Shown: positions 1,524 to 64,000 of the stretch, one piece after another
Numbering within the stretch: the first letter of the stretch is position 1
How the letters are laid out: every line of letters starts with the position of its first letter
Assembly: GCA_029785825.1 (NCBI GenBank)
Contig: JAFLYY010000001.1
Location: 62,001 to 126,000 of the forward strand
DNA: 64,000 bases
Direction: 5' to 3'
Source: Nitrososphaerota archaeon
GTDB lineage: Archaea > Thermoproteota > Nitrososphaeria > Nitrososphaerales > Gagatemarchaeaceae
The notes under the pieces: generated by a model
Told to the model about the DNA's origin: nothing
The model's database searches: none
The model's input: only the letters and a program-made list of their open reading frames with translations
Translations under genes and position numbers: made by a program

Positions 1524-2831
1524 TTGCCTCATAACTACTGGAATCCCCATGTTGAACTGGCTTCGCAGGCTGAACTCGCCGAAATGCAGCTGAAGAGGCT
1601 GAGGCACATCCTGGCTTACGTGAACAGATACAGCTCGTTCTATCGAAGCAGGTTCAAGGAACTTGGGCTGGATCCGGAGTCGGTCACCTCTCTCTCCGAC
1701 CTGCAGAAGTATCCCTTCACCACCAAGGACGACCTGAGGAGGCACAGCTACCCCAACGGGGGCGACTTCCTGTGTGTTCCTCCGAACAGGGTGAAGCTCT
1801 ACCACATGACCTCGGGGACCACTGGCAACCCTCAGACGGGCCCCTACACCGACAGGGACTATCAACAATGGACGGACCTGATGACGAGGTGCTGCGTCGC
1901 GGCCGGGGTGAAGGAAGGGGATGTGGCCCTCAACGCCTTCGGGTACGGGCTGTTCACGGGAGGCGAGGGGTTTCACCAGGGATTGCGGGGCGCAGGAGCC
2001 GCCGTCATCCCTTGGAGCGCGGGGAGGACCGAGGGGCTAGTGAAAACCATGAAGGATTTCCGGGCGACCGTCCTTTCTTGCACTCCGTCATACGCTCTAT
2101 ACATCGCAGAGACGGCGAAGAAGATGGGTATCGACCCAGCCAAGGAACTGAACGTCAGGCTGGTCCTAGCAGGGGCCGAGATCTGGGACGAGGAGGTCAG
2201 GAGGCGTATCGAGGAAGGTTTCGGCCTCAAGGAGAGGGGAGGGAGGGCAAAGAACGTGTACGGCGCCACGGAGATGTATGGGCCTGGGACAGGAATAGAG
2301 TGTGAGAGCGATTCCGGGTTCCACTTCTGGACAGACCACTTCTATCTCGAAGTTGTAGACCCTGAAACACTGGACCCGGTCTCGCCAGGGGAGACCGGCG
2401 AGATTGTGGTCACCACCCTCACCAAGGAGGCCATGCCGCTAATCAGATACAGGACAAGGGACCTGACCGTGGTAAACCAGGAAGCTTGCGACTGCGGGCG
2501 CAGCCAGTTCCCACGGTGCATGTGGGTCAGGGGGAGGCTGGATGATGTCATCCAGTACAAAGGCGCGAAGGTCTGGCCCTCCACCATACAAGAGACACTG
2601 TTGAAATTCGCCGACGTGCAGGAGTTCCAGATAATAGTCGACAAGTCCACCATGGACTACACCTTCGCCATCAACGTCGAACTCTCCGACAGGGCCACCG
2701 AAGACACGAAGGAACGGATCTCATCGGAGCTCAGGAAGGTCCTCTATGTGAAGTTCGACATCAAATTCTTCCCAACTGGGAGCCTTCCGAGGTATGAGGG
2801 GAAGGCCAAGAGGGTGCTCGTTAAAACATAG
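1524..2831 (+). CDS. phenylacetate-CoA ligase family protein
   Basis: A 435-residue protein of the usual length for PaaK-type phenylacetate-CoA ligases (adenylate-forming; acid + ATP + CoA to acyl-CoA + AMP + PPi). The N-terminus starts with the family's YWNP motif, which supports the TTG start. The ATP-binding loop TSGTTGNPQTG lies near residue 95, the YGATEMYGPG motif near 250, and a cysteine-bearing segment (ACDCGRSQFPRC) near 325, followed by GRLDDVI at the hinge to the small C-terminal domain. It heads the ring-degradation operon. Phenylacetate or a substituted arylacetate is the likely substrate given the PadC/PadD-like genes downstream; F390-synthetase-like relatives exist, so specificity is not certain. 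Confidence 0.8.
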   Translation: MPHNYWNPHVELASQAELAEMQLKRLRHILAYVNRYSSFYRSRFKELGLDPESVTSLSDLQKYPFTTKDDLRRHSYPNGGDFLCVPPNRVKLYHMTSGTTGNPQTGPYTDRDYQQWTDLMTRCCVAAGVKEGDVALNAFGYGLFTGGEGFHQGLRGAGAAVIPWSAGRTEGLVKTMKDFRATVLSCTPSYALYIAETAKKMGIDPAKELNVRLVLAGAEIWDEEVRRRIEEGFGLKERGGRAKNVYGATEMYGPGTGIECESDSGFHFWTDHFYLEVVDPETLDPVSPGETGEIVVTTLTKEAMPLIRYRTRDLTVVNQEACDCGRSQFPRCMWVRGRLDDVIQYKGAKVWPSTIQETLLKFADVQEFQIIVDKSTMDYTFAINVELSDRATEDTKERISSELRKVLYVKFDIKFFPTGSLPRYEGKAKRVLVKT

Positions 2832-2851
2832 GGCCAGGGAGGGCGCGAGCC

Positions 2852-3790
2852 ATGGAATATACCGACATAATTTATCAGAAGCGGTGGCACACTCACACCG
2901 CACTGGTGGCGATTAACCGCCCTGAAGACCACAACTCCTACCTCCTGAACACCCTCAGAGAGATGATCGACGCCTTCGACAACGCGATGTGGGACGACGA
3001 CGTTCAGTTCATCGTCCTGACAGGGATGGGGGACAAGTCGTTCTGCACGGGAGGGAACGTCGACGAGTACGCCCATACCTACGGCAAGAAGCCGGCGGAC
3101 TGGTGGAAGTGGGGGGAGATATACGGCAGGTTCCTTGACGTCATCCTGCACTGCGGCAAGCCAGTGATATCAAGAATCAACGGCATCGTCGCTGGCGGGG
3201 GGCTCGAATTCGTCGCCGCCTCGGACCTGGCCGTCTCCAGCGATAGGGCGCGCTTCCTTTCTCCGGGTCCGCGCGTCGGGATGACTTCCATCGGGGGGCT
3301 CTCACAATGGCTCCCTCTACACATCGGGCTAAAGCGGACGGCCGAACTCGTCATGCTGAGCAGCGAGATAGACGCGGCCAAGGCGCACGAGTGGGGAATA
3401 GCGAACTTCGTCGTCCCTCATCAGGAGCTGGACGCAAAGGTGAAGGAGCTGATCGACAGGATGCTCGACCTCTCCCCGACCAGCCTGCACTACTTCAAAG
3501 TCCACCTCAACTGGTGGAGGGACCTCGTCTGGAAGACCACCTGGGAGCACGCGAAGGAGTTCTTCGCGCTCAACCTCGGGTCGGTCGAGCCCACGGAAGG
3601 GCTTTCCGCATTCATCGAGAAGAGGCCCAGGAAGTACAGGGAAATCAGAGACTCCATAGCGAAGGGGATGGACCCGCGCTACCCCCACGGGCCCAACAGC
3701 GTGAAATGCCCAAAGTGCGGAGAAGGGTACTTGCCCCTGGGCTCGAAGTACTGCCTTAGCTGCGGTTCCGAGCTGGTGACCCGGTCCTGA
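2852..3790 (+). CDS. oah: 6-oxocyclohex-1-ene-1-carbonyl-CoA hydrolase with C-terminal zinc ribbon
   Basis: A crotonase-fold protein. The sequence around HNSYLLNTLREMI, then GMGDKSFCTGGNVDEYA near residues 58-72 and NGIVAGGGLEF near 110, closely follows Oah, the ring-opening hydrolase of the benzoyl-CoA pathway that adds two waters and gives 3-hydroxypimelyl-CoA. Known family members end near residue 270 by this alignment; here the tail carries CPKCG near residues 286-290 and YCLSCG near 300-304, a classic zinc ribbon. The next gene, Had, makes its substrate, and Dch follows, so the context is specific for this pathway. The zinc-ribbon fusion is unusual; its role is unknown. Confidence 0.87.
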   Translation: MEYTDIIYQKRWHTHTALVAINRPEDHNSYLLNTLREMIDAFDNAMWDDDVQFIVLTGMGDKSFCTGGNVDEYAHTYGKKPADWWKWGEIYGRFLDVILHCGKPVISRINGIVAGGGLEFVAASDLAVSSDRARFLSPGPRVGMTSIGGLSQWLPLHIGLKRTAELVMLSSEIDAAKAHEWGIANFVVPHQELDAKVKELIDRMLDLSPTSLHYFKVHLNWWRDLVWKTTWEHAKEFFALNLGSVEPTEGLSAFIEKRPRKYREIRDSIAKGMDPRYPHGPNSVKCPKCGEGYLPLGSKYCLSCGSELVTRS

Positions 3791-4803
3791 AGGCCGCTGT
3801 TTTCCATGGACCAAACACCCCCCTGACAGTCGAAGAAATGCCGGCCCCGGACCCACATCCCGGCGAGGCGCTCGTGAAGGTCGCGGCCTGCGGAGTCTGC
3901 GCCACCGACCTGCACTACCGGCACGGCACGCCCACGTTCAAGAAGCCCCCGATGGTCCTCGGTCACGAGATTTCAGGCATCGTCGAGGACGTCAGGGACG
4001 AAAGTCCTTTCGCGAAGGGGGATAAGGTCTTGATTCCCGCAGTCCTGTCGTGCGGCGCCTGCGGCAACTGCAGGGAGGGGCGCGACAACATATGCGAGAA
4101 GATGAAGATGGTCGGGAACCACATCGATGGGGGGTTCGCCGAGTTCGTCGTCGTCCCGTCGAAGATGCTCTTCAAACTCCCGAATGAGTTGCCGCTGCTC
4201 GAGAGCGCCATAATCTCGGACGCGGTCTCGACCCCCTTCCACGCCGTGAAGAACAGGGGCGCCGTCCGGGCCGGAGAGTGGGTTGCGGTGTTCGGGTGTG
4301 GCGGCGTCGGCCTCAACGCCGTCCAGGCGGCGGCGTCACTCGGAGGGATCGTCGTCGCCGTCGATGTCGACGACAGGAAGCTGGACCTGGCGAAACGGCT
4401 CGGAGCGGCCGAAACCGTCAACTCGACCACGAAGGATGCGCCGAAGGTCATCAGGGAGTTGACGGGTGGCGGGGTCGACGTCGCCTTTGAGGTCGTCGGC
4501 AAGCCGAGCGTCCTCGACCTCGCATTCAGTTCGGTGAGGCAGGGAGGGAGGCTCGTGACGGTGGGCTACAGCGAGGAGAACTGGAACTTTCGCGTCAACC
4601 GCGTCATGTTCAGAGAGATGGCGGTCATCGGCTCCCTCGGGAGCCGTCTGTCAGAATATCCGAGGATCATCGAACTCGTCAGGAGGGGCAAGATCAAGCT
4701 GGCCCCACTCGTGTCCGATCGCCTCTCGCTCGAGTCAATCAACGACTCTCTGGACAGGCTAGAGAAGGGAAGCGTTCTTGGAAGGCAGATTGTCGTCCTC
4801 TAG
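3787..4803 (+). CDS. had: 6-hydroxycyclohex-1-ene-1-carbonyl-CoA dehydrogenase (Zn alcohol dehydrogenase family), apparent CTG start
   Basis: A medium-chain alcohol dehydrogenase of about 338 residues. Catalytic zinc ligands appear in CGVCATDLHY and GHEISG, structural zinc in CGACGNCREGRDNIC, and the NAD-binding turn in GCGGVGLNAV. Between Oah and Dch it is best read as Had, which oxidises 6-hydroxycyclohexene-carbonyl-CoA with NAD. The first ATG in frame (3838) would remove the family's opening strand; the codons just before it read KAAVFHGPNTPLTVEE, a normal start for this family, preceded only by CTG at 3787, which overlaps the TGA of oah. I therefore place the start at this CTG; no ATG, GTG or TTG is available in frame. 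Confidence 0.85.
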   Translation: MKAAVFHGPNTPLTVEEMPAPDPHPGEALVKVAACGVCATDLHYRHGTPTFKKPPMVLGHEISGIVEDVRDESPFAKGDKVLIPAVLSCGACGNCREGRDNICEKMKMVGNHIDGGFAEFVVVPSKMLFKLPNELPLLESAIISDAVSTPFHAVKNRGAVRAGEWVAVFGCGGVGLNAVQAAASLGGIVVAVDVDDRKLDLAKRLGAAETVNSTTKDAPKVIRELTGGGVDVAFEVVGKPSVLDLAFSSVRQGGRLVTVGYSEENWNFRVNRVMFREMAVIGSLGSRLSEYPRIIELVRRGKIKLAPLVSDRLSLESINDSLDRLEKGSVLGRQIVVL

Positions 4804-4827
4804 TTCTAGAGGCAGGCGAAGATAGGA

Positions 4828-5595
4828 TTGGGAAAATCAGTGAGCTCGCGCATCGACGACGGGGTCGCAACCCTCACCCTATCGAGGCCCCCTCTAAACA
4901 TACTGAACATGGAGATGATGCAGGACCTCCTCGAGGAACTAGCCCATGCCACGTCAGGGCGCGGAATCAAAGCCGTCGTCCTGAGGTCGGGGCTGCCTGG
5001 CGTGTTTAGCGCCGGGGCGGACATCAGGGACCATCTCCCACCACAGACGGAGGGCTTCATCAAGACCTTCGAGAAGCTCGTCTCGTCCCTCGCTTTCTTT
5101 CCGAGGCCGACGGTGTCCGCCGTCCGTGGTAAATGCCTCGGCGGTGGCATGGAGTTGGCGTTGGCTTGCGACTTCGTCGTCGCCGAAGAAGGCTCCACGT
5201 TCGGCCAACCGGAGGTCAACCTCGGGGTCTACCCCCCTGCGGCCGCAGCCATCTACCCGAGACTGGTGGGGCTGAAAGCCGCTTCCGATATAGTCCTCAC
5301 GGGGCGGAGCATCTCAGCCGACGAAGCATATTCGTTGGGCTTCATCACTTCCGTCGCCAGACCCGGGGAACTCGACTCGAAATGCGACGAAATTCTGGAA
5401 GCCCTGAGGAGCAAGAGCAGCCAGGTCCTTGGGGTCGCCAAGAGGGCGATGCTCGACTGCCTCTCCCTCCCTCTGGGCGAGGCGCTCACAAAGTCTTCGA
5501 CATTGTACCTCGAAGAGCTGATGAAGATGCAGGACCCCCAGGAGGGCCTCGCTTCATTCATGGAAAAGAGGAAGCCGCATTGGCAGGACGGGTAG
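4828..5595 (+). CDS. dch: cyclohexa-1,5-diene-1-carbonyl-CoA hydratase
   Basis: A 255-residue crotonase-fold hydratase. The oxyanion-hole segments SAGADIRDHLP and GKCLGGGMELALA are present, as is FGQPEVNLGVYPPAA. The closing segment YLEELMKMQDPQEGL with EKRKPHWQ matches Dch proteins well. Dch adds water to the dienoyl-CoA made by benzoyl-CoA reductase, giving 6-hydroxycyclohex-1-ene-1-carbonyl-CoA, the substrate of Had. TTG start at 4828. It lies 24 bases after had and completes the hydration-oxidation-hydrolysis set of the upper benzoyl-CoA pathway. Confidence 0.9.
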   Translation: MGKSVSSRIDDGVATLTLSRPPLNILNMEMMQDLLEELAHATSGRGIKAVVLRSGLPGVFSAGADIRDHLPPQTEGFIKTFEKLVSSLAFFPRPTVSAVRGKCLGGGMELALACDFVVAEEGSTFGQPEVNLGVYPPAAAAIYPRLVGLKAASDIVLTGRSISADEAYSLGFITSVARPGELDSKCDEILEALRSKSSQVLGVAKRAMLDCLSLPLGEALTKSSTLYLEELMKMQDPQEGLASFMEKRKPHWQDG

Positions 5596-8206: not shown

Positions 8207-9097
8207 TTGAAGCTCGGAATCCGGCTGCATGGACGGGGAGGGCAGGGGGTCAAGACTGCCGGTCGGATCATAAGTACCGCAGCTTTCCTCGAAGGCCACC
8301 AGGCGGAAGACTCTCCCATGTACGGCCCTGAAAGGAGGGGCGCTCCCGTCGTGTCCTTCGTCAGGGTCTCCGACGAGCCCATAGAGGGGCGGGGGCCCAT
8401 AACACATCCCGACGCGGTTGTCCTAGCCGACCCCACAGTCTCCGACTCGAAGGTCTTCCCTGCGCTCTCGGGGCTCGCGGAAGGGGCCGTCGTAATAGTG
8501 AACGCACCGACGGGACGCGGGATCGGCTCGCTTCCTTCTCGCGCGGTCTACTTCGACGTCTCCGGAGTCACGAGCCGCTACCTGAAGAAAACGAGCGTCA
8601 GCGCGGGGATTGCCGCCGCCACATGCAAAGTACTCGGCATAGCTGGACCGGAGTCCCTCCACCGGGCAGTGGAGATGGAGATGGAAGAGATAGGACTCGA
8701 CGAGGAGTCCATACGTGCCAACCTGGCGTCCGCAGACGAGTGCTACTCCCTCTCCCCAAGGGTCTCCCCCTCGACGAAGATACAGGATGAAAGAGAAACC
8801 GATCTGGTCGAGTTGAGTGCACCCACCGGCACGCTCGCATCCATCTCGTTGATCGTGAGCACGGGGAACAGCTCCCAGAACAGGACGGGCGACTGGAGGC
8901 TCTCAAAACCCACGATAGACTACGCCAAATGCACGAAGTGCATGGTGTGCTACGTCTACTGCCCTGACTCGGCTATAACCCTCAAGCCAGACCTCACCCC
9001 GACGATAAACTACGACAACTGCAAGGGGTGCATGATCTGCATGGAAGAGTGCCCACCGAAGGCCATTTCAGAAGAAAGGTCGACGGTGTCAAGATGA
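8207..9097 (+). CDS. 2-oxoacid:ferredoxin oxidoreductase, fused gamma and delta subunits
   Basis: The first 190 residues are the gamma domain, opening with GIRLHGRGGQGVKTAGR. A linker follows and then a delta domain with two [4Fe-4S] motifs: CTKCMVCYVYC near residue 245 and CKGCMICMEEC near 275. Such enzymes decarboxylate a 2-oxoacid to acyl-CoA and reduce ferredoxin. Being directly upstream of benzoyl-CoA reductase suggests either phenylglyoxylate as substrate (PadEFGI-like, yielding benzoyl-CoA) or 2-oxoglutarate as a source of reduced ferredoxin (as KorAB does in Thauera). Gamma and delta are often separate genes; here they are one polypeptide. The last codons overlap the alpha gene by an ATGA. 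Confidence 0.85.
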   Translation: MKLGIRLHGRGGQGVKTAGRIISTAAFLEGHQAEDSPMYGPERRGAPVVSFVRVSDEPIEGRGPITHPDAVVLADPTVSDSKVFPALSGLAEGAVVIVNAPTGRGIGSLPSRAVYFDVSGVTSRYLKKTSVSAGIAAATCKVLGIAGPESLHRAVEMEMEEIGLDEESIRANLASADECYSLSPRVSPSTKIQDERETDLVELSAPTGTLASISLIVSTGNSSQNRTGDWRLSKPTIDYAKCTKCMVCYVYCPDSAITLKPDLTPTINYDNCKGCMICMEECPPKAISEERSTVSR

Positions 9098-10359
9098 AGA
9101 GGATGCTGACGGGAAACGCGGCTGCCTCTTGGGGGGCCCGCGTCTCTGATGTCGACTACGTCTGCGCATATCCCATCACCCCCCAGTCAGAGATAGTCGA
9201 AACGCTGTCCCACTGGGTGGCCGCTGGGAGCCTGAAGGCGAGATTCGTCAACTTCGACTCGGAGCACTCGATGCTGGCGGCGGCCGGAGCAGCGTCCCTC
9301 ACAGGTGCCCGGGTTTTCACCTCCTCTTCCAGTCAGGGCCTCGTCTACGGCCTGGAGAACCTGTACAGCATCGCAGGATGGAGGGCCCCCCTAGTGCTCG
9401 TCAACGTGTCCCGAGGCATGGGGATGCCGATGGTACTCCAAGTGGAGCACGGGGACGTCTTGGCAGCGAGAGACACCGGGTTCATCCAACTCCACGCGGA
9501 GACATGCCAAGAAGTTCTCGACCTAGTGCTCATGGGGTACAGGGTCGCCGAGGACAGCCGGGTACTCCTCCCGGTCATAGTCAACATGGATGGGTTCATC
9601 CTCTCCTTCGCCAGGGAGTCAGTGGACGTCCCCGAGACCCGTGCGGTCAGGTCGTTCCTGAAGCACTACTCGCGCCCGCGCCCTCTCCTCGGCCTGGAGG
9701 GCGAGCCCGTGGTCTATGCCCCCACCACGACCGACGGGGAAGTCTACGCCTTCTACAAGCGCCAGCTCCACGAGAGTTCCCTGAAGTCAAGGGAGGTCTT
9801 CCTCGAAGCCGCGGAAGACTTCGCAAACATCTTCGGGAGGCGATACGGTACCACGGAGGAGTTCATGACCAACGACGCCGATACCGTGATAGTCACGACC
9901 AACTCATACAGCTCGAACATACGGGCTGCCGTCAGACAACTCCGAGGCACGGGCGAGAAAGTGGGGATGCTCAAACTGACAATGCTCCGGCCCTTCCCGC
10001 GCCGGGAGGTGGCAGCCGCCCTGCGTCACGCCGAGAGGGTGGCCGTGTTCGAGCAGAATCTGGCCCCGGGCAGGGGGGCGATCATACATCCCGAGGTCGT
10101 GGAAGCCCTCTACCACTCGACCGAGAAGCCAAAAGTGGTCGCGTCCTTCGTCGGAGGGATAGGGGGGATGCCCGTCGGCACAGGGGAGGTCAGGGCGATG
10201 CTGCGCAAGTGCAAGGAACTCGAGTCGGGTGGAGACCCTGGAAGACCGACGCTGCTCTACAGCATGGCGAGCTGGGCCAAGATGAAGAAGTACCTCGACG
10301 TCGCGGGGGTACACGCTGAAGATACACAGGAGAATGTGACTGTTGGTCCAAAGCACTGA
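9094..10359 (+). CDS. 2-oxoacid:ferredoxin oxidoreductase alpha subunit
   Basis: A 421-residue alpha subunit beginning MKRMLTGNAAASWGA, with the pyrimidine-binding motif AYPITPQSEIVE near residue 24 and SEHSMLAAAGAAS near 55. The start at 9094 is set by the ATGA overlap with the gamma-delta gene and by family length; an upstream in-frame methionine only reads through that gene. The C-terminal half carries the usual domain II with an ENLAPGRG-like stretch (EQNLAPGRG). Works with the proteins at 8207 and 10343 as a heterotrimeric enzyme. See the gamma-delta entry for substrate options. Confidence 0.88.
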   Translation: MKRMLTGNAAASWGARVSDVDYVCAYPITPQSEIVETLSHWVAAGSLKARFVNFDSEHSMLAAAGAASLTGARVFTSSSSQGLVYGLENLYSIAGWRAPLVLVNVSRGMGMPMVLQVEHGDVLAARDTGFIQLHAETCQEVLDLVLMGYRVAEDSRVLLPVIVNMDGFILSFARESVDVPETRAVRSFLKHYSRPRPLLGLEGEPVVYAPTTTDGEVYAFYKRQLHESSLKSREVFLEAAEDFANIFGRRYGTTEEFMTNDADTVIVTTNSYSSNIRAAVRQLRGTGEKVGMLKLTMLRPFPRREVAAALRHAERVAVFEQNLAPGRGAIIHPEVVEALYHSTEKPKVVASFVGGIGGMPVGTGEVRAMLRKCKELESGGDPGRPTLLYSMASWAKMKKYLDVAGVHAEDTQENVTVGPKH

Positions 10360-11275
10360 TTCGGCCTTCAGGACGCTGAAGGACGTCCCCCGGGAAGAGC
10401 GCCTCAGGCCAGGCTCCCCCCTCTGCGCCGGATGCGGAGGCGAAGCCGTCGTCAGGCTGGCGCTCAAGGCGCTGGGTCCGCGAACCATCGTAGTCTCCGT
10501 CCCGGGCTGCCTGGCTCTCTTAGCCCTCTATCCGTACGCGACTCTCACGAGCTCCCTCCTCTTCACGACCTTCGCCAGCGGCCCCGCCGCCGCCCAGGGG
10601 ATTGTCGACGGGATAATGGCCAGGGTCGAGAAGGGAAAGCTGGCCGACCCCAACTCGAAGGTCATGGTCCTCACGGGGGACGGTGCGGCCTACGACATAG
10701 GCCTCCAGGCGACCTCCGGAGCTGTCCAGAGGGGCCTCGACTTCTACTATCTGTGCTACGACAACGAGGCCTATGGGAACACGGGCTTTCAGTACTCGTC
10801 AGCCACGCCGCTCGCAGCCTCCACTTCGACGACGGCAGCTCTAGGCGGCTCGATTGGCAGCGGACTGAAGAAGAAGAATCTCTTCGAAATCTGGAGGGCG
10901 CACAACCCCGCATACCTCGCGACCATCTCCCTCTCCAGGCCGGTCGACCTCCTCAGGAAGTTCGAGAGGGCAGCGAAGGTCAAGGGGCCCAAGCTGTTCA
11001 TCGCGTTCAGCGTCTGCCCTACGGGGTGGGGCTCCGAACCGAGGATGACGGTCAAGTTGGACAAGCTCGCCGTCGAGAGCGGGATATGGCCCCTGAAGGA
11101 AGCTGTGGACGGGAAGGTGGTCCATACCTACATACCCCGGAGGAGGGTTCCGGTCGAAGAATACCTGAGGATCCAAAGGCGCTTCGAGCACCTGTTCGAG
11201 CCTTCCAAGAAAGAAGAGACGATCGCGAGCATCCAGAGGAACGTGGATGCCTACTGGACGGATGTAATTATATAA
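10343..11275 (+). CDS. 2-oxoacid:ferredoxin oxidoreductase beta subunit (TPP-binding)
   Basis: A 310-residue beta subunit. PLCAGCGGEAVVRLALKALG at the N-terminus contains the cluster-ligating cysteines, and GDGAAYDIGLQATSGA through YDNEAYGNTGFQ is the thiamine diphosphate and magnesium site. The TTG start at 10343 overlaps the alpha gene by 17 bases. It forms the catalytic pair with the alpha subunit. The gene ends at 11275, shortly before a new TATA box, so bcr genes can be transcribed both from this operon and from their own promoter. Confidence 0.88.
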   Translation: MVQSTDSAFRTLKDVPREERLRPGSPLCAGCGGEAVVRLALKALGPRTIVVSVPGCLALLALYPYATLTSSLLFTTFASGPAAAQGIVDGIMARVEKGKLADPNSKVMVLTGDGAAYDIGLQATSGAVQRGLDFYYLCYDNEAYGNTGFQYSSATPLAASTSTTAALGGSIGSGLKKKNLFEIWRAHNPAYLATISLSRPVDLLRKFERAAKVKGPKLFIAFSVCPTGWGSEPRMTVKLDKLAVESGIWPLKEAVDGKVVHTYIPRRRVPVEEYLRIQRRFEHLFEPSKKEETIASIQRNVDAYWTDVII

Positions 11276-60277: not shown

Positions 60278-60392
60278 CAGGCCAAAGGCGAGGCGCGGTT
60301 CGGTTAGCTATCATGCGTCGCGTCCTCGGCGAGACCCGGGTCTAGGGCGGGTTCAGGGACCTGGAGCATAGGCATCGGGTATAGTGCCGCGG

Positions 60393-60426
60393 GTCGGATT
60401 TATCACTACCTAGGTGGGCTCAAATC
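60393..60426 (+). repeat. 34-bp direct repeat, left copy
   Basis: A perfect match to 62725-62758. It starts GTCGGATTTATCACTACC and contains the 8-bp palindrome ACCTAGGT. It lies at the GC-rich to AT-rich boundary, just before the ribbon-helix-helix gene. Confidence 0.95.
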
Positions 60427-60463
60427 TCAACCGCGATATCTATCCCATATCCTATAGTAGTAT

Positions 60464-60471
60464 AGTTTATA
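60464..60471 (+). promoter_or_regulatory. TATA box for the ribbon-helix-helix gene
   Basis: AGTTTATA, about 36 bases before the ATG at 60504, preceded by TATAGTAGTATAG at 60453-60465. The same TAGTAGT core recurs at the promoter near 62128, so both could bind one repressor. Confidence 0.5.
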
Positions 60472-60503
60472 TGTCTCCAATATCCATCAGATATCTGAAA
60501 GCC

Positions 60504-60824
60504 ATGTCAGATTCTGAGCCGCCTAGCTTCGTCCGAGTCACGATAGACGTGCCACAGGATACTCTAAACACACTGGACAGAATCAAGGAATTCGCAGGTT
60601 ACTCAAGCCGCGGGCGGACGATCCAAGCCCTGATTGACGCAATAGGAGAGATGAGTGTGGATTCTCAGAATATCAACCAGGCAAGACAGGAATTCAGTCA
60701 GCTTGGACAGAAAAACCTTCCATCAGCCGAGCAACTCGTAGCGTTCTTTGCCACGTTCGCGAAGTACGCAAACCAAGTGGATAATCTCCTCAGAAGACTG
60801 TCACGGTTCGCAAAGGTCTCGTGA
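60504..60824 (+). CDS. ribbon-helix-helix (CopG-like) regulator
   Basis: About 106 residues. SFVRVTIDVPQDTLNTLDRI with FAGYSSRGRTIQALID is the beta strand and two helices of a CopG/Arc-type DNA-binding domain; a helical tail follows. A start at 60414 lies inside the direct repeat and ahead of the TATA box, so the ATG at 60504 is chosen. The P-loop gene begins 7 bases after its stop, so they form an operon. Confidence 0.75.
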   Translation: MSDSEPPSFVRVTIDVPQDTLNTLDRIKEFAGYSSRGRTIQALIDAIGEMSVDSQNINQARQEFSQLGQKNLPSAEQLVAFFATFAKYANQVDNLLRRLSRFAKVS

Positions 60825-60831
60825 ACAGAAA

Positions 60832-61428
60832 TTGTCTAGCGAGGAGCAAGAAAGTGAGGACAGGCGTTTTCGAATCATTGTTGGGGGTCCCCCGAACTCA
60901 GGGAAAAGCACTTTCGTCGAGGATCTCAAGCGTGCTTTGGAGGATGAAGAAGTCGATGTCGATTCAGTAGATTTCGATGTCTGGTCTCCAACTCTCGATT
61001 TAATACAAGGGAAGGAAAGTTCAGAACAGCGAGCATCCCACAAGAAGAGGGAAGTTACTGAGAAGGACATCGATGATGCGAAGTCGAGACTGGAAAGAGC
61101 TTCTCTGGTTCACCAAGTTGTCCTTATGGATGGGCCAGGAAAGATATCGGAACAGGGCGCAGTTCTGTACAGAAGTGCTACACATTCGATTATCGTCTGT
61201 CAGGAAGCTGCCGAATCAGAAGGGAAAGACTGGGCGAAATTCCTTTCAAGTCTGGAACTGGAACCTGTGGCAGTGGTTCTAACACGCCTTGAAGGAAGTC
61301 AGGATGAAGAGAGGCTCGAACCCGGCCCACCTATCACCGCACTTCTAATCGGTCTTAACAGGCAACCTAGGGTCACTCCAGTTATTCGAAGGCTCGCTTC
61401 GCTCGTCAGACGCAGGTTAGGCGTCTAA
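60832..61428 (+). CDS. P-loop NTPase of an accessory module
   Basis: About 198 residues from the TTG at 60832. Walker A is VGGPPNSGKSTFVEDL near residue 17, Walker B-like VVLMDGPGK near 87, and VVLTRLEG near 135 resembles a guanine-specificity or switch position. The GGPPxSGKS form recalls the kinase domain fused to Csx3, but no CRISPR array or Csx3 part is present here. It pairs with the RHH regulator. Base composition is AT-richer than the core genes. Function unknown. Confidence 0.6.
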   Translation: MSSEEQESEDRRFRIIVGGPPNSGKSTFVEDLKRALEDEEVDVDSVDFDVWSPTLDLIQGKESSEQRASHKKREVTEKDIDDAKSRLERASLVHQVVLMDGPGKISEQGAVLYRSATHSIIVCQEAAESEGKDWAKFLSSLELEPVAVVLTRLEGSQDEERLEPGPPITALLIGLNRQPRVTPVIRRLASLVRRRLGV

Positions 61429-62124
61429 TTCTTCCAATTTGCGTATTGCCGCATCTACCTGGCGAAGCTCGTTTCTTCTATCGTTTAGTCTGATGGTGAT
61501 GGAAAGACCTACATTCTTCTTCAATTCGTTGAACTTTCTGAACGCGCTTGTTTCATCGATTTTGTAGACTTCGGATTCTTTCAGAATCTTAACGACGTCC
61601 AAATCGCCTTCGACTCTTACAATTGCATTGAATTCTTTGGCCAGTTTTTCTTCTAGTTCTTTCACACGCCTGTACGATTGATGATTGACTCTATCCCACA
61701 TCCTAGTGAGTGTTACATGCCCGATTGCATTTCGCGTTGCAGTATCTCTCGTGTAACTTATCGAAAGTGAATCTCTCTTTGCTTCGAAAACCAGAAAATC
61801 ATCCGTGGCCTTGTCGTAGACGATCTTGAAATTGCGATCCAACACCAGACCACGGACATCACCCAAGTCGAAGTTGCGAAGGTTCTTCCTGATTACGATT
61901 TCGGCGTTGTTGTCGAGAATCCTCGTTATCACTTTGACGTTATCTCCTATGTCGACATACACCCTGAACTCTTTTGGTATGTACGCTGCGGCAGATCCTC
62001 CACTCTGCACAATCCTTCGCGGATACTCTCTTTCGTACTCTAGAGTCAAACGTTCTGCCTCCTGCCCACAGCTTCCGCATTTGCCATTTCTACCACCTGT
62101 GACACTACTGCCATACACTACCAA
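61417..62124 (-). CDS. zinc-ribbon and AbrB-like domain protein
   Basis: A 235-residue protein. CGSCG near residue 16 is half of a zinc ribbon or knuckle; RIVQSGGSAAAYIPKEFRVYVDIGDNVKV near 37-65 is the AbrB/MazE-type swapped hairpin. A beta-rich middle and a coiled, charged C-terminal helix (KELEEKLAKEFNAIVRV) follow. TTG start at 62124 within an inverted repeat. Overlaps the convergent P-loop gene by 12 bases. A DNA-binding regulator of the island is the likely role. Confidence 0.55.
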   Translation of the reverse strand: MVVYGSSVTGGRNGKCGSCGQEAERLTLEYEREYPRRIVQSGGSAAAYIPKEFRVYVDIGDNVKVITRILDNNAEIVIRKNLRNFDLGDVRGLVLDRNFKIVYDKATDDFLVFEAKRDSLSISYTRDTATRNAIGHVTLTRMWDRVNHQSYRRVKELEEKLAKEFNAIVRVEGDLDVVKILKESEVYKIDETSAFRKFNELKKNVGLSITIRLNDRRNELRQVDAAIRKLEELDA

Positions 62125-62135
62125 AATAGTAGTGT
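62102..62135. promoter_or_regulatory. inverted repeat over the start of the AbrB-like gene
   Basis: ACACTACT at 62102-62109 and AGTAGTGT at 62128-62135 are perfect 8-bp inverted arms, 18 bases apart, covering the start codon and the region next to its TATA-like sequence. This looks like an operator, possibly for autoregulation. Confidence 0.45.
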
Positions 62136-62162
62136 ATAAGGTCTTGGAAGCTTTCCAAAGGG

Positions 62163-62170
62163 TTTAAATC
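62163..62170 (+). promoter_or_regulatory. TATA-like box for the DUF7669/AbrB gene
   Basis: TTTAAATC about 29 bases before the ATG at 62194, in the divergent spacer shared with the AbrB-like gene. Confidence 0.5.
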
Positions 62171-62193
62171 ATTAGACTTAGAAAGCTTAGAAT

Positions 62194-62676
62194 ATGCCGC
62201 GCTATAGTAGGCCCGTATGGCAGATGATAAAGGAGGCTGTGGAGGAGCTGGGCGACATCACTGGCCCCACCACCGTTCAATATGTCCATGACCACTTCCC
62301 GGACGACAACGTAAACAGCAATACGATTCAGACACAGTTGATCGCATGCTCAGTCAACCATACCTCGGCGGGCAAATTTGACGACCCGAATAGATTTCTG
62401 TGGTATCTCGGAAACGGACGCTACAGGGCTTACGACCCTGGATCAGACAGGATTGAGGTGAAGGAGAGGTGGAGAATTGTTGAGGTGAAGCGCAGACCTC
62501 CCAGAGTGCCGCCATTCGACGAGGTTCCGTTCAGCAGGGTCGAAGGGGGTAATCGCATCGCCCTGCCGACCGCAGTAATTCAGGGGTTGGGCCTTGGTCC
62601 AAACGACATCGTCGTATTCGTCAGTGAGAATGGGGGCTTCCACCTAAAGAAAGGGCGCCTTAGAATCGAAGTCTAG
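62194..62676 (+). CDS. DUF7669-like/AbrB-like protein
   Basis: A 160-residue protein. The first 90 residues (PVWQMIKEAVEELGDITGPTTV through NRFLWYLGNGRYRAYDPGSD) resemble a winged-helix HARE/DUF7669-type domain often seen with restriction and defence genes. The last 50 (GNRIALPTAVIQGLGLGPNDIVVFV) look like an AbrB-type hairpin. The two-domain form points to DNA binding. It is the last gene before the right copy of the repeat. Confidence 0.6.
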   Translation: MPRYSRPVWQMIKEAVEELGDITGPTTVQYVHDHFPDDNVNSNTIQTQLIACSVNHTSAGKFDDPNRFLWYLGNGRYRAYDPGSDRIEVKERWRIVEVKRRPPRVPPFDEVPFSRVEGGNRIALPTAVIQGLGLGPNDIVVFVSENGGFHLKKGRLRIEV

Positions 62677-62724
62677 TACTCCGAGAAGACGGACTAGCAG
62701 AAAGGCAAGACCAGGGTGTGGTTC

Positions 62725-62758
62725 GTCGGATTTATCACTACCTAGGTGGGCTCAAATC
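62725..62758 (+). repeat. 34-bp direct repeat, right copy
   Basis: Identical to 60393-60426; the flanking bases on both sides differ between copies. Together they bracket about 2.3 kb and four genes. The remaining spacer to 62943 shows no convincing gene. Confidence 0.95.
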
Positions 62759-62943
62759 CGAGTCGCATAAGGCAAAAGCCGAATGATTATGTGGCTACTG
62801 ACGTATCGATGAGTTCGAGTCAAGGAGCAACTAGCTTTCGAACGCCCAAGTTGAAGGTTGTAATCCTCGAAGTCTGACCCCATTTCTGACCCACCGCTTG
62901 ATAAATCTCGACTATGGCGTTCGAGATGTGGGTTGGCGCGAAT

Positions 62944-63612
62944 TCATAGGCCTCTCACAGCTGGTGCCGCCTTTGCTCCTTGGATGGTAATTGGCTTGGC
63001 GGACTTCCAAATGTGGTAGAACGCTTCTCTGAATGTCCTTACTAAAGCGCCAGCCAAGATGAAGCCCGCTTCGAAATTGGCGTAAAGTGAATTCATTCTC
63101 AGCTCGGCGGAACCCACGTAACACAAGCTGCTGTCAGAGATCATTATCTTGGCATGGACCGACTCATAATGGAACCGATCATCCACGGAGGGGAGGGAAG
63201 CAGTGACGTCTCCCAACTGAACATGATATTCCCTAAACTGAATCCGCGATGGGTCACCCCAGGATAGATAGATGTCAGAAAGTCTCCTAGCCGCTTTCTG
63301 GACCTGAAGATTCGTGTCGTATTCTCTGGTTAGGCAACGCACAAACACGCGATTGCGAGCCAACCGCCTAAGCAAGTCAGCGTAGAGGAGAACGGCGTGC
63401 TCCTCAAGGAAAGGCGCTGAAATGAGTAGTTCCTCCTTTGCTGAGTACTGTATGACCCTGAACGCAACGGCCGTTGGGACAACGCCTGGGAACTTCAGCT
63501 GAAATCCCGATAGTTGTGCTTCGGGCATGGAAAAGACAGGTACGACGCCCTCTTGCTCGACTCTTCGTATGAGCTCGTCCGCTACCGAATCGGTATTGGA
63601 CGTGTCAAGCAT
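62944..63612 (-). CDS. phospholipase-D-fold protein, DrmC-like
   Basis: A 222-residue protein with one HKD motif, VHAKIMISDSSLCYVGSAEL near residue 150-170 (H, K, D and the following GS). ELLISAPFLEEHAVLLYADLLRR near 63 is the first half of the PLD fold without a second HKD, as in DrmC of DISARM. It overlaps the DUF1998 gene by 8 bases, in the DISARM order DrmB then DrmC. It may be a nuclease or a structural PLD. Confidence 0.65.
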   Translation of the reverse strand: MLDTSNTDSVADELIRRVEQEGVVPVFSMPEAQLSGFQLKFPGVVPTAVAFRVIQYSAKEELLISAPFLEEHAVLLYADLLRRLARNRVFVRCLTREYDTNLQVQKAARRLSDIYLSWGDPSRIQFREYHVQLGDVTASLPSVDDRFHYESVHAKIMISDSSLCYVGSAELRMNSLYANFEAGFILAGALVRTFREAFYHIWKSAKPITIQGAKAAPAVRGL

Positions 63613-64000
63613 TAGTACCGACCCTCCATAGTTTGAGCACGTCCTTCCTGCTCAGGAGGTTGTTCGGTGTGTAGAACCGGTCGCCTCCCTCAGCAGGAAT
63701 CAGCGGGTGACACAATGCGTCTCGAACAAAAAGGCACTTCACGCAGGCGGTTTGGCAATCATAACGACAGTCACTCACCTTGATCTGAGCTGTTGAGAGC
63801 CACTCAGTCAGCTTACGCTGTACTATGTAATCTACTCCGCTTGTTTCCACGTCCTCCCTTTCTGCGATTAGGACACCGCAGTCGCGTAGCAGGATCTTTC
63901 CAGCAAATGCGCTGTCAGCCAGCCCCGTCACTAGGGATGCTTGCGAAATCAACGCGTGTTCCACCCCATGGAGTATGGGGATCAGTGTGTCCCCTCTCTC
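63605..64000 (-). CDS. DUF1998-type protein, DrmB-like C-terminal part (truncated by window edge)
   Basis: The frame is open to the window end and carries the C-terminal part of the protein: LHGVEHALISQASLVTG, then GVLIAEREDVETSGVDYIV and CRYDCQTACVKCLF with further cysteines and histidine, as in the zinc-binding end of DUF1998 proteins. In DISARM and related defence loci, DrmB carries this domain and works with a DrmA helicase; that gene would be beyond 64000. Only about 130 residues are seen, so assignment rests on the motif and the PLD neighbour. Confidence 0.55.
   Translation of the reverse strand, partial: ERGDTLIPILHGVEHALISQASLVTGLADSAFAGKILLRDCGVLIAEREDVETSGVDYIVQRKLTEWLSTAQIKVSDCRYDCQTACVKCLFVRDALCHPLIPAEGGDRFYTPNNLLSRKDVLKLWRVGTNA

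Follow-up and report, generated by a model that had tools for sequence, protein, structure and literature searches.

We find that a 2.3-kb unit at one end of the window (the whole stretch of 64,000 nucleotides that was analysed, which corresponds to positions 62001-126000 of contig C1 in genome G000) is best described as an integrase-less mini-element bounded by att sites, similar to the bacterial CIMEs, that recombined site-specifically into the 34-bp attL of a resident element of about 25 kb. We assign this reading a probability of about 0.72. A previous sequence-only reading of this DNA proposed a non-autonomous integrated element, and the proposal is now well supported, both by a junction with one copy of the repeat in the related genome G004 and by the nesting of the cassette at an island with a tyrosine recombinase.

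The cassette is delimited by two plus-strand copies of a 34-mer that are 100% identical. The left copy (60393-60426) is the attL of the cassette on the chromosome side, and the right copy (62725-62758) is the junction between the cassette and the resident element. The perfect 34-bp repeat around four genes reported by the sequence-only reading is thus exact, and all four reading frames are open. A chance origin of the pair is negligible. The central palindrome also reported is there, as the 34-mer is all but 2 bp of a 36-bp imperfect palindrome, TCGGATTT-ATCACT-ACCTAGGT-GGGCTC-AAATCCGA. The palindrome has complementarity at 13 of 18 positions (a value reached by 6 of 100,000 shuffles), and its arms, TCGGATTT and AAATCCGA, are the T-arm of tRNA-Phe copied in both orientations. 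We considered and rejected that the 34-mer belongs to an intact tRNA: ARAGORN and Rfam find none at the repeats, and the T-arm stem stays open. A whole-genome search (1.97 Mb) finds the two copies and none besides with up to three mismatches. Amongst 300 genomes of the order, a 23-bp core of the repeat appears in G000, G004, G011 and G019 only, all of the same genus. Over five copies, the conservation of the 34-mer is 99%, versus 48-70% in the flanks past the 8 bp derived from the tRNA. The search of other loci that had been suggested shows that related elements in three other genomes use the 34-mer as their att site; with this, and with only two copies in its own genome, we reject an ordinary dispersed repeat. 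In this Nitrososphaerota genus, a family of integrative elements targets the 3' end of an intron-containing tRNA-Phe(GAA) gene, and the 34-mer serves as their left att site. Searches of viral contigs (with the repeat and two proteins), of plasmids (with two proteins) and of PDB sequences gave nothing useful.

The cassette is the outermost part of a low-GC island of 27.5 kb (C1:122385-149865) that extends beyond the window to the tRNA-Phe gene. At the left repeat, the GC content falls from about 63% to about 48%; it is 46-60% from there to about 150 kb of C1. The change in base composition first attributed to the cassette is therefore present at the left repeat, but there is no recovery at the right one. 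Because the GC content stays low past the right repeat, the shift marks the larger island and not the cassette alone. The left core repeat of the island is a 17-bp sequence that repeats the tRNA-Phe 3' end in reverse complement, TGCCGCGGGTCGGATTT (60385-60401, plus strand), which overlaps the left 34-mer. The right end of the island is TGCCGCGGGTCGGATTTGAGCCGAC, the tRNA 3' end read backwards, whose first 17 bp are those that recur at the left; this second copy of the 17-mer (C1:149849-149865) is inside the tRNA-Phe gene. With the 17-mer at both ends, it is the whole island that is bounded by the 17-bp core repeat. The tRNA-Phe gene (C1:149849-149970; L027:1849-1970) scores 40.4 bits with Rfam, and its anticodon is GAA by inspection. 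The gene has an insertion in the region of the D arm, a probable non-canonical intron that is variable among congeners, and it is missed by ARAGORN in every mode tried. Elsewhere on the contig, a lone copy of the tRNA-Phe 3' core with one mismatch lies at C1:1181-1197, a long way from the island. There is also a perfect 174-bp inverted repeat with an outer 144-bp pair (92%) around a low-GC ORF of 564 aa (C1:159599-162234), possibly another mobile unit.

The resident element starts at the right 34-mer and has its right terminus at tRNA-Phe. Its left terminus (62725-62783, plus strand) consists of the 34-mer followed by CGAGTCGCATAAGGCAAAAGCCGAA; it is common to the G004 elements, with 93-97% identity over 59 bp to those on contigs C2 and C44. 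A tyrosine recombinase, in which the residues R...HxxR...H...Y can be read from the sequence, is found outside the window at C1:144054-145301; the closest integrase found relative to the cassette (PF00589, E = 1e-4) is about 20 kb off. Recombinase orthologues 87-95% identical occur on three G004 contigs. The distance from the recombinase to a tRNA-Phe-type att is about 4-7 kb at four loci, in G000 and in G004 contigs C2, C44 and C18, where the right end of C2 is another att and not the tRNA. The 34-mer and close recombinase orthologues are found together in G000, G004 and G011 (the latter a contig-end fragment), while in G019 the 34-mer is present with no recombinase match, and in G013 and G018 the recombinase is present with no 34-mer. 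The cargo of the island includes DISARM (drmC, drmB, drmA), a TdeIII-type restriction enzyme and methyltransferase, DpnI, and a HEPN protein. The DISARM core adjoins the cassette, spanning 62944-64000 of the window and C1:125605-130292. Its first gene in the resident element encodes a DrmC-like PLD nuclease (62944-63612, minus strand; PADLOC DrmC, E = 6.6e-30; Pfam PLDc_2), and the window ends in the C-terminal part of DrmB (63605-64000, minus strand; whole gene C1:125605-127329; PADLOC DrmB, E = 6.7e-73; MZB domain).

What the site probably looked like before the cassette can be read from G004. Two related elements in that genome, with blocks 90-94% identical, have left ends that carry one 34-mer and lack the cassette. 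The sequence after the single 34-mer, CGATTC..AAGGCAAAAGCCGAA, is the same as that found 3' of the right 34-mer in the window. When the cassette is excised in silico, the resulting junction is identical to that of G004 C44 at 57 of 60 positions and to that of C2 at 55 of 60; the cassette's own left end agrees with the C44 left end at 7 of 26. The left chromosomal flank is 86% identical to G013 and G017, and the similarity stops exactly at the att site, with different DNA beyond it in both. From the flank homology and the G004 junction together, it follows that the outer left boundary belongs to the chromosome, and that the resident element originally began on the left with what is now the right 34-mer. 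The search for an empty site, advised by the sequence-only reading, has thus produced a precise one-copy junction, with the provisos that the relatives are mostly draft genomes, some in short contigs, and that G004, which has several tRNA-Phe contigs, may combine more than one strain.

The cassette has four intact genes. The first (60504-60824, plus strand) encodes a small RHH-like DNA-binding protein of 106 aa, proposed by sequence inspection; the RHH assignment has a match to the NikR N-terminal RHH, but a weak one (E = 0.003). The P-loop NTPase that follows (60832-61428, plus strand) is clear, with a match to the full PADLOC model PDLC01515 (E = 4.7e-21), and it resembles the AAA domain of Csx3-AAA: residues 5-188 align to positions 101-281 of PDLC01045, which is the AAA part only, without the Csx3 domain. 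Its start codon is presumably TTG, and by inspection its Walker A motif is GGPPNSGKST. A structure model of this protein was dropped as too poor (pLDDT 54), and the fold search from it was likewise left unused. A scan of the neighbouring genes found no CRISPR-Cas. Convergent with the P-loop gene is a gene (61417-62124, minus strand) for a protein of 235 aa with an AbrB-like N-terminus and a conserved C-terminal domain, with homologues in G143 and G250. Of the zinc ribbon and AbrB domain once described for it, the AbrB part is maintained by inspection, but the ribbon is weak, with one CxxC in a segment missing from the nearest homologue. The C-terminal half matches 3cxj only weakly (E = 0.014), and we do not use this as evidence. 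The last gene (62194-62676, plus strand) encodes a DUF7669 and AbrB/MazE-like protein of 160 aa, 52% identical to a G052 homologue, in which DUF7669 is solid (PF24706, E = 9.9e-14) but the AbrB/MazE tail is sub-threshold. In the divergent promoter region, there is an operator-like inverted repeat ATACACTAC-N7-GTAGTGTAT (62113-62137) with 9-bp arms extended by hand; arms of at least 8 appear in 0.9% of the shuffles of the 86-bp stretch. None of the four genes encodes a recombinase, as had been observed before, nor a relaxase or a transfer protein.

The complete cassette is seen in one genome only, and no larger relative carrying the same genes is found amongst 400 genomes of the class. Taken separately in the class-wide search, the P-loop gene has a match in 1 other of the 400 genomes, the AbrB-like gene in three other genomes, and the DUF7669 gene in four. 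In G250, which is from another family, the convergent pair of P-loop and AbrB-like genes is kept, and the P-loop gene is truncated. The genes are not fixed in all relatives, since the AbrB-like gene has no match in 30 congeners.

Several other small units are found at tRNA-Phe. With at most one mismatch allowed, the 17-mer core is present in 20 of the 31 genomes of the genus, often in multiple copies with differing palindromic continuations. In G004 C18 and G017 C8, the right end of the resident element family holds an integrase-less 2.65-kb ShosTA unit (ShosA, E = 2e-66; ShosT, E = 2e-16) bounded by imperfect repeats of about 40 bp, the empty form of which is found in G000 and in G004 C44. 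The ShosTA-like cassette comes with a wHTH gene at L077 (G004:C18), 8283-10946, and at L120 (G017:C8), 2578-5243. G027 has an integrase-less att-bounded unit of 1.9 kb with a DUF6036 nucleotidyltransferase, which together with a wHTH-like protein has an AbiE-like layout (L137, G027:C81, 5102-7033). In G011 and G019, a 9.3-kb integrase-less att-bounded unit carries DpnI, DndB-like and methyltransferase genes. A 4.6-kb contig in G010 (L070, G010:C19, 757-4501) shows three att-like sites about 1.8-1.95 kb apart that surround PhoU/PiT and racemase/nitroreductase genes. We do not count these G010 units as support because PhoU/PiT-type genes flank the chromosomal tRNA-Phe too. The remaining small integrase-less units at this hotspot favour the mini-element reading, and they make a defence or toxin-antitoxin cargo plausible for the four-gene cassette, which from its DNA-binding proteins and its Csx3-AAA-like P-loop NTPase may be a self-regulated module of one of these types. 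Of the mobile regulator or defence cassette suggested at first, mobility agrees with the att bounds and the one-copy junction, while the defence part is guilt by association.

The mechanism that we propose would start with the resident element itself recombining into the 3' end of tRNA-Phe. As the cassette encodes no recombinase, it moves, or once moved, probably by means of its neighbour's. The resident recombinase, or that of a co-resident relative, would act in trans on the 34-mers, so that the cassette is probably mobilised in trans, judging from the sequence of a single insertion. The crossover would take place within GTCGGATTT, the 9-bp stretch that the tRNA core shares with the 34-mer, where it must fall if one enzyme performs both reactions. 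A crossover for the resident element at the central ACCTAGGT palindrome was rejected, as on the tRNA side GGATTT is followed by native tRNA sequence. Recombination between the two 34-mers is predicted to release a circle joined at ...GGTGTGGTTC-34mer-TCAACCGCG..., and to leave behind the junction TGCCGCGG-34mer-CGAGTCGCATAAGG. The attP that we infer for the cassette lacks TGCCGCGG, the tRNA 3' end; thus, direct integration into tRNA-Phe would remove the end of the tRNA, a loss that insertion into the resident attL avoids.

CIMEs are usually explained as decay remnants (PMC5704250), and archaeal elements are reported to lose their integrase after integration (PMC8371274). It is quite conceivable, if on balance doubtful, that the cassette is also what is left of a larger tandem element with its own integrase, reduced to two att ends and four genes; its small size and a right side without the TGCCGCGG tRNA end go in that direction. 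In the other direction, all four genes are intact, have operator-like spacing and take up the room from one repeat to the other, and gene fragments are absent; units of similar size (1.9 and 2.65 kb) are also found repeatedly at the site, so the small size may be native. The identity of the repeats and the tandem arrays common at tRNA-Phe agree as well with integrase-free homologous recombination or gene conversion between the att repeats of tandem elements. The same repeats are expected from homologous recombination over 34 bp or from an internal deletion in a larger element. We regard the route by homologous recombination or gene conversion as improbable, given that 34 bp is a short substrate and that the duplicated stretch coincides with the att site of an element, not with a more extensive block of homology.

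Direct repeats flanking a unit could also be the long target-site duplication of a transposon or IS. The cassette has no transposase, and its ends have no terminal inverted repeats, and the would-be duplication is a pre-existing att, single in other genomes, which makes this origin very hard to sustain. For four immobile host genes that happen to lie between copies of a dispersed repeat, we found no supporting evidence; with a 34-mer present only twice in the genome, and the AbrB-like gene missing in congeners, that explanation is barely credible, and the empty site refutes it. An integrase-less mini-element recombined into the attL of the resident element is the reading that we keep.

A broader and rather speculative extension, which we think unlikely in full, is that the tRNA-Phe locus is a shared platform where a conserved recombinase inserts and exchanges integrase-less defence cassettes of about 2-9 kb, the four-gene unit being a new defence or toxin-antitoxin system. 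The att sites would then be palindromes mimicking the tRNA T-arm, and the tyrosine recombinase would be kept near the tRNA. The several small units that one tRNA carries in uncultured Nitrososphaerota, some of them with known defence genes, offer a testable model of the swapping of defence modules in archaea, and a four-gene cassette with a Csx3-AAA-like NTPase is a candidate for a new defence or toxin-antitoxin system.

Amongst known systems, Csx3-AAA is a CRISPR ring nuclease fused to a kinase-like domain (PMC7371418). The P-loop protein matches its AAA/kinase-like part over its whole length, but the cassette protein has no Csx3 domain, and its partners are RHH and AbrB-like proteins. An integron array has mostly single-gene cassettes, a structured attC, and an IntI-type integrase with attI, and it does not describe the cassette, which has four genes in convergent and divergent arrangement, identical palindromic 34-bp sites and no adjacent integrase. 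A platform at tRNA-Phe would be similar to an integron in function, but with multi-gene modules. The cryptic integrated elements of thaumarchaea target tRNA 3' ends with a median att of 17 bp and integrate in tandem or piggyback; by definition they encode an integrase, and the smallest is 2.6 kb with the integrase included (PMC6563490). The resident element fits this class, being from the same phylum, at a tRNA 3' end and with a 17-bp core; it has an integrase, whereas the cassette has none. In the piggyback insertion of NitEve-E7 in NitEve-E6, whose site is only approximate (PMC6563490), a smaller element is also found within a larger thaumarchaeal one, but the site of the cassette is the att itself, resolved by the one-copy junction of a related genome. 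The nearest described kind is the bacterial CIME, a cis-mobilizable element that undergoes site-specific accretion with ICEs or IMEs at tRNA 3' ends (PMC5704250). Like a CIME, the cassette is integrase-less, has att sites at both ends (34-bp direct repeats that are the attL of related elements), lies in tandem with a recombinase-supplying element at a tRNA gene, and has no transfer genes. It differs in being archaeal, of about 2.3 kb, and located at the distal attL rather than at the attR on the tRNA side, with a mobilisation that is predicted. Integrase-less att-bounded cassettes have been described in bacteria and are apparently poorly characterised in archaea, for which this cassette, by virtue of the one-copy junction in a related genome, is a well-delimited case.
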